This document shows positions 1 to 6,633 of a stretch of 64,000 bases of DNA, in pieces. Numbering within the stretch: the first letter of the stretch is position 1; the number at the start of each line of letters is the position of its first letter. Source of the stretch: Spirochaetota bacterium (GTDB taxonomy: Bacteria > Spirochaetota > UBA4802 > UBA5550); NCBI GenBank assembly GCA_017999915.1, contig JAGNKX010000001.1, positions 879,440 through 943,439 on the forward strand, given 5' to 3'. Both the position numbers and the translations under genes were made by a program. The notes beneath the pieces are model-generated. The model saw only the letters and a program-made list of their open reading frames with translations. It did no database searches and had not been told where the DNA came from.

Positions 1-1106
1 ATTGCTGGAATAAGCACCTCCCCCTTTTCTACGAGATTGCCAAAGATCCCCAGGGCTTTCATCGCATGATGGAAATACTGTCCCGAAAGGGCCACGGCCT
101 CGGAGAATTGTTTGTATCGGATATAGCCTTGGTTATCTATCGCCGAGGGATATAGATCCCCCACTGCTCCCCGGCGCAGGGATATATTGATGCGTCCTGA
201 TTTGTTTTCCTTTACTATATCCGGAGCAAAATACCGCAGTTCGTATGCTGCCTGTGCGGCCAGAATGATCTTACGGGCTGTTGTCACATCGATACTGCCG
301 GCTTTCTTCCCAGCCCGGTGTATCTTTGCTCCTAATTGTAAAAATGATGTCAAACCAGCAACCTGGTGGATATACAAGTCCGAGGCCTGCAATGCCGTGC
401 CTTTTTCGATGGCTGGAAAAAAGAAATAGTCCAGATCAATTATGAGTGCGTCCTTTGCCCCAGATGATTTTCGATATACACGGATTGGTTCTCCCTCAAT
501 GACGGCAACAATAGATTCTCCGGTTTTAGGATCATGCTTCTGAATACTTGCATACGCCCGTGGCATGGGAACCTTGCCGTCTATGATGGGCATAATCTTA
601 TCTTTCGCTGCCTCTACGATATCCCCTGCGCCATGGATTGCCCGCCCGTTGTGGTTTACCAGTGCGCCAAATGCTGCCTTATATAGAGTTTCCAGACTAA
701 TAATAACCCGCGCCCCTACCCGGTCCTCTTTTCTGTTGAGATCGCGTGTGATTATTTCCCGGAAGTCATATAAGCCTTTCCCTTGGGTGGTGATCATGGT
801 ATAAATGCCCGCCCCAATGTCCGATATAAAGGCGTTATTCACCGAATATTTATAGCGGGCTAAAGATCCAGCTACAAGCAGAGCGTCCGCCTCATGTTTA
901 ATAAGGCCCTTGACGCCCTCCAGCTCAAAGGCATTATTGATAGAATAAGGTTTTCTTGTCCCGTTTTTTACATCCTCGGCAATCCTGCTCCGGCCCGTTT
1001 CAGGGTGTATATTCCTTGTTGGCACTATTGAAGTTATTTGCCGTGGAATGTTCTCTTTTGATTTATCAAAATTTAGCAGGATATGCTCTGCAGTTTCGTT
1101 TTTCAT
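1..1106 (-). CDS. Unknown protein of the integrated element, 5' end present, C-terminus outside the window
   Basis: An open frame of about 368 codons runs from an ATG at 1106 to the left edge without a stop, so the C-terminus is missing. Its ATG overlaps the stop of the DnaB-like helicase as ATGA (1103-1106), which implies translational coupling. The protein looks soluble and mixed alpha/beta, with no signal peptide or membrane segment. I recognise no family. Its place as the last visible gene of a primase-helicase-X series suggests a role in element replication or copy control. That is inference from position only. Confidence 0.8.
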   Translation of the reverse strand, partial: MKNETAEHILLNFDKSKENIPRQITSIVPTRNIHPETGRSRIAEDVKNGTRKPYSINNAFELEGVKGLIKHEADALLVAGSLARYKYSVNNAFISDIGAGIYTMITTQGKGLYDFREIITRDLNRKEDRVGARVIISLETLYKAAFGALVNHNGRAIHGAGDIVEAAKDKIMPIIDGKVPMPRAYASIQKHDPKTGESIVAVIEGEPIRVYRKSSGAKDALIIDLDYFFFPAIEKGTALQASDLYIHQVAGLTSFLQLGAKIHRAGKKAGSIDVTTARKIILAAQAAYELRYFAPDIVKENKSGRINISLRRGAVGDLYPSAIDNQGYIRYKQFSEAVALSGQYFHHAMKALGIFGNLVEKGEVLIPA

Positions 1107-2185
1107 CTTAACCTCTTACCAATGGTGTCGTCATAATCCGACTCATCGATTGCTGCACTGCTGTCCGTTTCCTGGATCATGGAAAGGGGGGTAAAATTAA
1201 AAGCCGCATTTATCTTTGTCTCCCAGCGGCGGCCCTTCGGTCCGAGCTTGTTTTTTGATGCCTTGATACGCCGGGTAGGATCCTCCATGGCAGGAATGAC
1301 TTGGGGTTTCCCGGTGTCTGGATCTTTGATAACTTTCATTTTGCCTGAAATATCGAAAGCAACGTCAGCCACGTTTTCGATCTCGCTGGTTTCTCTGTAC
1401 CGAAATGTTGTGCTGTTGGTATCCCTATTCAGTTGACTGATAAGAAATATTATACAGCCGTCGGCTGCCAATGCTTTTTGTATGTCCTTCAAATTACTTA
1501 CAGCGGCATTGAGGGCCTCTCGTTTTAGCGCATCTACCGGCGTCGGTACTACCTGCAGGTAATCGATGCAAATAATGATCTTTTTGCAGCCGCACTGCTC
1601 TTTGACCTTTTCTGCCTCTATTTGCAGGGTTGCCAGGTCGAGTTTTTCTTTAATTACAATTCGACCAAGTATTTTATTATGCTCCGTGTTCAATGACTCG
1701 ATGTCGAATGTAGTGTTAAATTGGTTCATCCCTGTCATTTGCGAAAGGATGCGCTTGGCGGATACAAATAGGCTATCGTCAAGGCTATAAAACAGTACTA
1801 CCGTATCGTCGTTGTTCTGTAAAATTTCCAGTACCAGGGCCGTGACTATTGACGTTTTCGCGCTTGATGATTCACCGCCAATGACGTTTAGACCGTCTCG
1901 AACAAGAGGCGAATAATCCGGCGAGTTTAAATCCTTAAACACATTGCCCAGACGATACGGTCGGATTTGATAGTTAGCTATCTCTTTTATTTGGTCTAAC
2001 AGCGTGGTTATGACAAATTCGTTATTCCACTCGTTACTTGCCTCGCCCACGATCCTCTGAAGTTTATCCGGTAGTGCTGCATCATTGACTGCATCTTCAT
2101 TATTGATGAGTGGGCGAACTCGGGCAAGAATGTCGCTGTTTCTATCCCATACGGTATCTGTTCGTAATGCATAATCATCACTCAT
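1103..2185 (-). CDS. DnaB-like replicative helicase (RecA-fold ATPase)
   Basis: This 360-residue protein is a P-loop helicase of the DnaB C-terminal type, without the usual N-terminal primase-binding domain. A Walker A-like GGESSSAKTS sits near residues 101-110, a Walker B-like IICIDYLQVV follows about 100 residues later, and ISQLNRD resembles the DnaB sensor region. It is shorter than chromosomal DnaB (about 450 residues), as expected for phage or island helicases. It overlaps the primase gene upstream and the unknown gene downstream by 4 bp each (ATGA), so the three are almost certainly one translational unit for element DNA replication. Confidence 0.88.
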   Translation of the reverse strand: MSDDYALRTDTVWDRNSDILARVRPLINNEDAVNDAALPDKLQRIVGEASNEWNNEFVITTLLDQIKEIANYQIRPYRLGNVFKDLNSPDYSPLVRDGLNVIGGESSSAKTSIVTALVLEILQNNDDTVVLFYSLDDSLFVSAKRILSQMTGMNQFNTTFDIESLNTEHNKILGRIVIKEKLDLATLQIEAEKVKEQCGCKKIIICIDYLQVVPTPVDALKREALNAAVSNLKDIQKALAADGCIIFLISQLNRDTNSTTFRYRETSEIENVADVAFDISGKMKVIKDPDTGKPQVIPAMEDPTRRIKASKNKLGPKGRRWETKINAAFNFTPLSMIQETDSSAAIDESDYDDTIGKRLR

Positions 2186-3402
2186 AATATAACCCCCTGA
2201 AATGTTTTTTTAATTTTGTGTATTCCCTGCCGCTCTGCCAGTGTAATATCCACCAGCCGCTCCAGTTCGTGTGCTGTGTATTTTATACCATCATTGAATG
2301 GCGTTTGCTGCTTGCGGATGTTATCATGATGTCCGTAGTCCGCTTGTCGGGCAATATCGTTCAGGTCCTTGACGGCCCCGCTGATATTGTATTCAGTTTT
2401 AAGACGATTAAAATCAATGGCATAGACTTCCTTGCCACGTTTCAGAAATTCCTTTTTTACCCGGAGATAAAAGGCCCGGCCCGCGGCGTCTTGGTCACTG
2501 GCAATGACAAGCCTGTATGGAGCAAGAATATCAAAATACTCGGGCTTGAAATTATTAACGCCGGCGATCCCGATGGGAGTGTCAAGACCGAGTTGCAGGG
2601 CCGAGAGTACGTCAATAGCTCCCTCGCATAGATAGATGGTTGCGCCTGGTGCGAGATCCTTCAGTTTCTGCTGGGTGTACATTGGGACAGCGATCTCGGA
2701 TAAAAATCGGTATTTGGCCCCGCTACCGCCGTCTATGTCACGGCCCTGCAGATTTATAATGTTTCCCTCGGTGTCATGGTAGGGGATGATAATACGGTGA
2801 TGGATAAAGACAAAATAAGGCCTCCCAGTACTGCCCATTGCGACGATCCCGGCGTCTTGTAGCCGCTCCATGCCGTATTTGTCGTTCAAGGCCTTTTTAA
2901 TAGCGTTCATAGCCTTGGGGATAGACTTTATTCCAGCCCGTTCGATGATGTTACGGCGAATCCCCCGGCCCTCCAGGTAGATTGCGGCTCCTTCCGGATC
3001 CAGCATGTCCAAGAGATCCTGGTATATATACGAAAATTCTCTCCCATCCTTTTTCGAAGACTGTTCGATTGCTTTGTAGACTTTATCGTTGCCCCTGTGT
3101 AACGATTTAGCGGGCCGGGCAGGGGTTGTGGTCTTCTGTTTGGGATCGAGATTGTATTGTTGCTTTATCACTTTTATTGCTTCCCGGGTCGGGATTTTCA
3201 ATTTTTCTTTAACAAGGTCTATACTGCTACCCCCGATCCCGCATCCAAAACAGAAAAAAGAATTTGTATGCGGATACAATTTACACGATGCTTTGGTGTC
3301 ATGCCCGTTAAAACACAACACCATGCCATGTCGGTCCGGCTTTATCCCAAGCCGAGTTGCAATGTCTGCAATTGGTATTCGTTTTATTTCGTCGATAATC
3401 AC
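2182..3402 (-). CDS. DnaG-like primase with CHC2 zinc finger and Toprim domain
   Basis: The protein has 406 residues. The first 70 carry a CHC2-type zinc finger (a Cys/His pair in LCFNGHDTKAS, then FCFGCGIGGS). A Toprim domain starts near residue 254 with the acidic motif YLCEGAIDVL and continues with the DQDAAGRAF motif. The helicase-interaction tail of chromosomal DnaG appears to be missing. It would prime element DNA together with the adjacent helicase, whose start codon overlaps its stop. Primase-helicase pairs of this sort are typical of phages, satellites and replicating islands. Confidence 0.9.
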   Translation of the reverse strand: MIIDEIKRIPIADIATRLGIKPDRHGMVLCFNGHDTKASCKLYPHTNSFFCFGCGIGGSSIDLVKEKLKIPTREAIKVIKQQYNLDPKQKTTTPARPAKSLHRGNDKVYKAIEQSSKKDGREFSYIYQDLLDMLDPEGAAIYLEGRGIRRNIIERAGIKSIPKAMNAIKKALNDKYGMERLQDAGIVAMGSTGRPYFVFIHHRIIIPYHDTEGNIINLQGRDIDGGSGAKYRFLSEIAVPMYTQQKLKDLAPGATIYLCEGAIDVLSALQLGLDTPIGIAGVNNFKPEYFDILAPYRLVIASDQDAAGRAFYLRVKKEFLKRGKEVYAIDFNRLKTEYNISGAVKDLNDIARQADYGHHDNIRKQQTPFNDGIKYTAHELERLVDITLAERQGIHKIKKTFQGVIL

Positions 3403-3440
3403 GATTTATATACCTCGCACATTCTCAGAGCCGGGCTTAT

Positions 3441-6411: not shown

Positions 6412-6559
6412 GGTGAACCTCCTAAAATCGTGCTGCATGTAAGTGAGCGTTTGTGCTACACTTATGCTACACTTGATAATTTTAAGAAGCACCAGCTGTC
6501 TGGAAGCCTCGAAATGATCGCTTTTCAGATCATTTTAAGTCGTTTTGAGGGGGTTGATG

Positions 6560-6585
6560 CGCGCCCGGCAGGATTCGAACCTGCG
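6560..6585. other. Presumed chromosomal attachment site (attachment core in the tRNA-Arg 3' end)
   Basis: Tyrosine integrases of this class usually recombine within the T arm and 3' end of a tRNA and leave a direct repeat of it at the far element end. Only one copy is inside the window, so the core limits are a guess. The second copy should lie to the left of base 1. Confidence 0.4.
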
Positions 6586-6633
6586 ACCTACGGATTCGTA
6601 GTCCGGCGCTCTATCCAACTGAGCTACGGACGC
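6560..6633 (-). tRNA. tRNA-Arg (ACG anticodon)
   Basis: Read on the minus strand, the 74 bases fold as a cloverleaf. The acceptor stem GCGTCCG pairs with CGGGCGC, the D arm is GCTC/GAGC, and the anticodon stem CGGA/TCCG holds loop CTACGAA with anticodon ACG. The T arm GCAGG/CCTGC holds TTCGAAT. The discriminator is G and CCA is not encoded. Its 3' end faces the integrase and is the presumed attachment target. Confidence 0.95.

Follow-up and report, generated by a model that had tools for sequence, protein, structure and literature searches.

At the left edge of the stretch of a Spirochaetota bacterium's genome studied here (the window: 64,000 nucleotides, G000:C1:879440-943439, where G000 is the host genome, C1 its contig JAGNKX010000001.1, and window position 1 corresponds to C1:879440), an element of 24.6 kb sits in a gene for tRNA-Arg(ACG). 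What is the nature of this element? From sequence analysis, to which we owe all results on it, we lean towards an integrated phage satellite that would depend on a helper and has a packaging motor of its own, but no container. It probably moves by loading itself into the shells of another phage. The packaging part of this proposal is built on genes for a small (TerS) and a large terminase subunit (TerL) that are intact, are under purifying selection and stand without portal or capsid genes in two species, with a similar arrangement in a third.

Borders and insertion site

Searching the host genome with the integrase-tRNA region recovered a second copy of a 49-bp repeat (G000:C1:861408-861456), 100% identical to the 3′ end of the tRNA-Arg(ACG) gene. 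The two copies enclose the element, about 18 kb of which extend leftward beyond the window and hold terminase genes, an Xer-like recombinase and type I restriction-modification (RM) cargo. An earlier reading made from the letters alone (the sequence-only reading) had the element run off the left edge and expected a direct repeat there, a GC contrast and a patchy occurrence among relatives, all of which is borne out. GC content is 42.3% within the element versus 55.3% and 55.8% in the two flanks, and another genome of the same genus (G002) has an intact tRNA-Arg gene and, with no element in between, the RlmD and radical-SAM genes of the flanks. The element's primase had no close homologue among 98 genomes searched, and searches of phages, viral contigs and 296 genomes returned nothing related to a protein of 391 amino acids (aa). 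With its own integrase at one end and a repeat of the tRNA 3′ end at the other, this is an integrative element in a tRNA gene.

In a further genome, G003, the tRNA-Arg site holds another integrase-bearing element. There, the 5′ part of tRNA-Arg(ACG) adjoins this different element (L070/L071), and beside the orthologous left flank, on a separate contig, stands a complete copy of the tRNA gene; the resident element seems to have crossed over closer to the anticodon.

Terminase genes without a recognised portal or capsid

A small-terminase-like gene lies 280 bp past the window edge and is followed by an intact gene for TerL (Table 1). The TerS call combines a weak profile match with a position directly before TerL. 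Among the element's proteins, none was recognised as portal, capsid or tail, and matches to the portal family PF04860, the capsid family PF05065 and the portal type of genome G005 were absent from the whole G000 genome. The head and tail structural genes that a complete prophage has between its attachment (att) sites were not recognised here. Where the sequence-only reading had seen neither capsid and tail nor packaging genes, the former statement holds, but the packaging genes lie just outside the window. Of its proposed satellite-like or plasmid-like island, the satellite-like part, with replication genes of its own, can be kept, while plasmid-like is less apt for an element with its own terminase.

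The closest relative resides on a contig of an uncultured Spirochaetes bacterium (CALMRZ010000082.1; G003, locus L069). In the same order as in G000, it encodes TerS (65% identity), TerL (92%), a zinc-finger open reading frame (ORF; 53%), the recombinase (60%) and a 61-aa ORF. A different replication module—an HTH_17 protein, an HTH_36/DnaD-like initiator and a primase-helicase in two frames—precedes this block, and a different type I RM system stands after it. Neither portal nor capsid was recognised in the G003 element, there were no unassigned large ORFs from the helix-turn-helix (HTH) gene to TerS, and the 391-aa protein is missing. Another G003 contig, which ends in tRNA-Val with an integrase from the family of the G000 enzyme, shares exactly 55 bp with the start of the block's contig, an overlap that resembles an edge in the assembly graph.

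Between G000 and G003, the nonsynonymous (dN) and synonymous (dS) divergence of TerL is 0.044 and 0.50, respectively (dN/dS ~0.09), that of TerS 0.26 and 1.8; for two host genes, dS is 0.9 and 1.1. The low ratio for TerL indicates purifying selection, and the values for both genes functional constraint, which speaks against a simple relic. The dS of TerL falls below that of the host genes, suggesting that it was exchanged once the hosts had already diverged.

G000 and G003 are the only close members. As a more distant parallel, a genome from another family of the phylum (G093) contains a complete element of 9.1 kb. Bounded by 46-bp repeats of a tRNA-Met 3′ end, it encodes an integrase, a DnaD-like protein, a recombinase (28% identity), TerL, a TerS-like gene and small ORFs; no structural gene was recognised in it. 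In a TerL tree, G000/G003 and G093 form two separate lineages, each near prophage TerLs, so that an arrangement without capsid genes has probably had two origins or more. The closest relatives within the phylum, TerLs of prophages in G005, G032 and G049 (41-44% identity), differ in having a portal-like gene directly downstream, where G000 and G003 have the zinc-finger ORF and the recombinase.

Scans of viral contigs with TerL, primase, helicase and recombinase returned no close relative, and a related recombinase was found at none of 80 viral TerL loci, on which the portal profiles used missed most portals. A TerL scan of genome contigs recovered the G003 contig and distant relatives only, two of which were inspected and are prophages. 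A terminase-plus-integrase element at a tRNA-Leu gene (G059) was not counted, as its left end is off the contig. In G215 (L140, 8839-13735), a TerS-TerL pair is followed, about 3 kb on, by a protein resembling the 61-aa ORF (36%, E=4e-8).

A recombinase and a candidate recombination site

The second tyrosine recombinase of the element is of the Xer type (TIGR02224, E=9e-21; profile match to XerA, PDB 5hxy), with R, K, HxxR, H and Y all present. Upstream of its gene lies a 54-bp site that is 98% identical between G000 and G003, versus 61% for the recombinase gene itself (DNA). It contains a perfect 11-bp inverted repeat, TATTTGATAAT-CTTAT-ATTATCAAATA, which we take to resemble the dif sites of Xer recombinases. 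Directly after the zinc-finger gene, G000 has a second, degenerate copy (C1:876842-876873; 27/32 matching positions, compared with 19-21 for shuffled sequences). The two copies flank an insert that encodes a MORN-repeat protein and forms a 3.6-kb AT-rich stretch between zinc-finger ORF and recombinase; G003 has one copy and no insert. From this we take the 54-bp site to be a candidate for recombination, with a slot for cargo. Alternatively, it may be a promoter with operator that was duplicated by chance, for it can also be read as a sigma-70 promoter (TTGACC, 17 bp, TATATT).

An element-specific 39-bp motif occurs downstream of the recombinase, twice in G000 and once in G003, and a weaker copy (28/39) lies inside the G000 primase gene (C1:882510). 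We rejected a genome-wide repeat: with up to 3 mismatches, the motif was found in the two elements only, among six genomes of the genus. A role of the recombinase in hsdS phase variation is not favoured, since it travels with TerL rather than with one RM type. Prophages of one spirochaete family also encode homologues of the recombinase (L111, L112, L117), placed between a replication operon of the phage and a variable region containing defence-like genes.

Integration, replication and cargo genes

The sequence-only reading had described a tyrosine integrase with intact catalytic residues, 148 bp from the tRNA-Arg 3′ end, together with an excisionase-like HTH protein, a CHC2-Toprim primase and a DnaB-type helicase. 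Profile matches agree with all of these assignments, the integrase has the complete R/K/HxxR/H/Y set, and the distance is right if counted from the ATG at 6411. It had also joined these genes by 4-bp overlaps, which is correct for primase and helicase (2182-2185)—and an overlap likewise links the helicase to the 391-aa ORF (1103-1106)—but not for the HTH_17 and primase genes, which are about 187 bp apart. Single-sequence structure prediction for the 391-aa protein gave a pLDDT (predicted local distance difference test) of 33, too low for use.

Integrases with 45-66% identity are common in the host's family and order, and all those whose surroundings were examined adjoin tRNA-Arg, tRNA-Val or tRNA-Gly genes. 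At tRNA-Gly, elements of this integrase family in G015 (L241) and G023 (L247) encode a protein resembling one from the capsid region of a prophage; the stretch read had no terminase match, and these are possibly satellites with other phage parts.

In the gap between the 391-aa gene and terS, four iteron-like repeats are followed by an AT-rich palindrome and then a GC-rich hairpin, marking the region as a candidate origin or packaging site. Farther left, HsdM, HsdS and HsdR together constitute a type I RM system. An Rfam search found no credible RNA family. In three related genomes, a cluster of a ParA-like protein, a primase-helicase of ~950 aa and tyrosine recombinases recurs beside RHS-like fragments (L072 in G003, L073 in G001, L077 in G026).

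Table 1. Features of the element, listed from the tRNA gene leftward; "window" marks window positions, C1 the host contig
Feature	Coordinates	Strand	Evidence or remark
tRNA-Arg(ACG), integration target	window 6559..6633	-	ARAGORN
Integrase-side 49-bp direct repeat (attachment site)	window 6554..6602	.	genome search
tRNA-targeting tyrosine integrase	window 5269..6492, probable start ATG 6411	-	Pfam Phage_integrase E=2e-22, PHROG 1 E=5e-50
72-aa ORF	window 5032..5250	-	no family found
316-aa protein	window 3948..4898	-	no family found
84-aa HTH_17 protein, AlpA/excisionase-like	window 3590..3844	-	Pfam HTH_17 3e-5, PHROG 66 excisionase 7e-4
CHC2/DNAG_N/Toprim primase	window 2182..3402	-	profile matches
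DnaB_C-type helicase	window 1103..2185	-	profile match
391-aa protein	window 1..1106 (C1:879370-880545)	-	last residues left of window
Four iteron-like ~22-bp repeats, CAGCATCRTTTCCYCCCMATTG type	C1:879264-879364		between 391-aa gene and terS, ~200-bp gap
TerS-like	C1:878681-879160		several PHROG small-terminase families, E 2e-5 and weaker
TerL, intact	C1:877161-878684		PHROG 38 E=4e-97
Zinc-finger ORF, 72 aa	C1:876904-877122		
MORN-repeat protein	C1:875019-876632	+	
54-bp site	C1:873220-873273; G003 L069:11912-11965		upstream of recombinase gene
Xer-like tyrosine recombinase	C1:872248-873192		
39-bp motif TAAAACSCNNNACARGGSCAANRGTGAAGYCTGAWRGGC	C1:871644, 872184; G003 L069:10861		downstream of recombinase
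61-aa ORF	C1:871968-872153		
HsdM	C1:869686-871140		
HsdS	C1:868490-869689		
HNH protein	C1:867592-868488		
Methylase/specificity protein	C1:865138-867576		
HsdR	C1:862717-865104		
DUF3800 protein	C1:861816-862667		

A proposed life cycle and its alternatives

How might such an element propagate? Its integrase would insert and excise it at the tRNA-Arg 3′ end, with the HTH_17 protein as the likely directionality factor; target site and 49-bp repeats are present in the genome, and excision is what they would imply. Once excised as a circle, the element may replicate by means of a primase and a DnaB-type helicase that it encodes itself, possibly starting at the iteron-like repeats. The satellite TerS would then recognise satellite DNA and the satellite TerL translocate it into procapsids, with portal, capsid and tail supplied by a co-infecting helper phage. 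The Xer-like recombinase might act on the dif-like 54-bp site, resolving multimers or exchanging cargo, and the type I RM system and other defence-like genes would be cargo of benefit to the host.

Several points weigh against this scenario, itself deduced from sequence. No resident helper was found in G000 and, as portal and capsid matches are lacking there, any helper would need to be external or of another type. For TerS, the profile evidence is weak (best small-terminase PHROG E=2e-5), and the element's proteins of 391, 316, 171 and 104 aa have no assigned identity. Not all of the element is core, as the AT-rich MORN insert shows. In G003, the element has only one complete end and a primase-helicase split into two frames, and, given a G093 recombinase of only 28% identity, the linkage of terminase and recombinase could be convergent.

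The element might instead be a prophage remnant, stripped of structural genes and kept as a tRNA-anchored defence island, with the terminase genes as relics. Its nearest TerL relatives do sit in prophages, its left half is defence-like cargo, an AT-rich, gene-poor stretch adjoins TerL and no helper is resident. We nonetheless consider a remnant rather unlikely: the portal-less junction of TerL, zinc-finger ORF and recombinase recurs in a second species with other replication genes and cargo, TerL and TerS are intact with a low dN/dS, and the compact, att-bounded element of G093 is arranged similarly. Relics apart, the terminase genes might act as an anti-phage decoy that interferes with phage packaging, on a defence-carrying integrative element that moves otherwise. 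Defence-like neighbours would suit such a role, and interference with helper packaging is common among satellites (PMC10690885, PMC11389934). However, both subunits stay together with replication genes in G000, G003 and G093, and no conjugation gene was seen, which makes a decoy improbable. Least of all do we expect a complete but very divergent prophage with unrecognised portal, capsid and tail proteins. Although several proteins of the element lack a family, the space between the repeats could not hold a head-tail module: the sizeable ones left over have 391, 316, 171 and 104 aa, and the largest of them is absent from G003, where no large ORF between HTH gene and TerS is left unassigned.

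Comparison with known satellites

Known satellites differ in how they come by a terminase. P4 and some Staphylococcus aureus pathogenicity islands (SaPIs) use that of the helper; other SaPIs and phage-inducible chromosomal islands (PICIs) bring TerS only; and capsid-forming PICIs (cf-PICIs) as well as the Streptomyces satellites Mulch and Flayer encode terminase together with capsid and portal (PMC11389934, PMC10803314, PMC10690885). Our element is reminiscent of PICIs in its att-site integrase, AlpA-like HTH protein, primase and replication genes, own TerS, lack of capsid genes and accessory cargo. In contrast, it has a separate DnaB-type helicase, a second, Xer-like recombinase and a length of 24.6 kb, compared with a PICI average near 9.5 kb (PMC10803314). 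Moreover, a PICI pairs its TerS with the helper's TerL, and the intact TerL found here places the element outside that definition. With cf-PICIs it shares integrase, HTH protein, replication genes and both terminase subunits (its TerS call being weak), but these possess portal, protease, major capsid, connector and HNH genes (PMC10690885). No gene for a portal, protease, major capsid or connector was recognised in the element, and the lack of portal and capsid sets it outside the cf-PICIs as well. Judged by its genes, it is satellite-like in its working and a member of neither group.

Phage-inducible chromosomal minimalist islands (PICMIs) likewise combine an integrase, an HTH_17/AlpA-type regulator, a replication gene and defence cargo, without capsid remodelling, but are very small, specific to Vibrionaceae and dependent on the helper recognising a packaging motif (PMC10803314, PMC11389934). 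Tycheposons and virion-encapsidated integrative mobile elements (VEIMEs), compared here by description only, are also tRNA-associated and integrative, with tyrosine recombinase, cargo and suspected travel in virions, yet were described in marine bacteria. In the literature collection searched, no paper combined phage satellites with spirochaetes.

Tentatively, and with some doubt, we put forward a possibly undescribed kind of satellite: one with a TerS-TerL motor and no container, in which an Xer-like recombinase and a dif-like site are fixed partners of the terminase genes, with a slot for swapped defence cargo, and whose arrangement would have evolved at least twice in Spirochaetota. If true, an element with nothing but the terminase pair would represent an intermediate step between satellites that use the helper's terminase and cf-PICIs, and would raise the question of whether a foreign TerL docks on the helper's portal, overriding the motor that the helper brings. 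Phage satellites would then also be known from the Spirochaetota, and type I RM systems would have one more route for passing between species.

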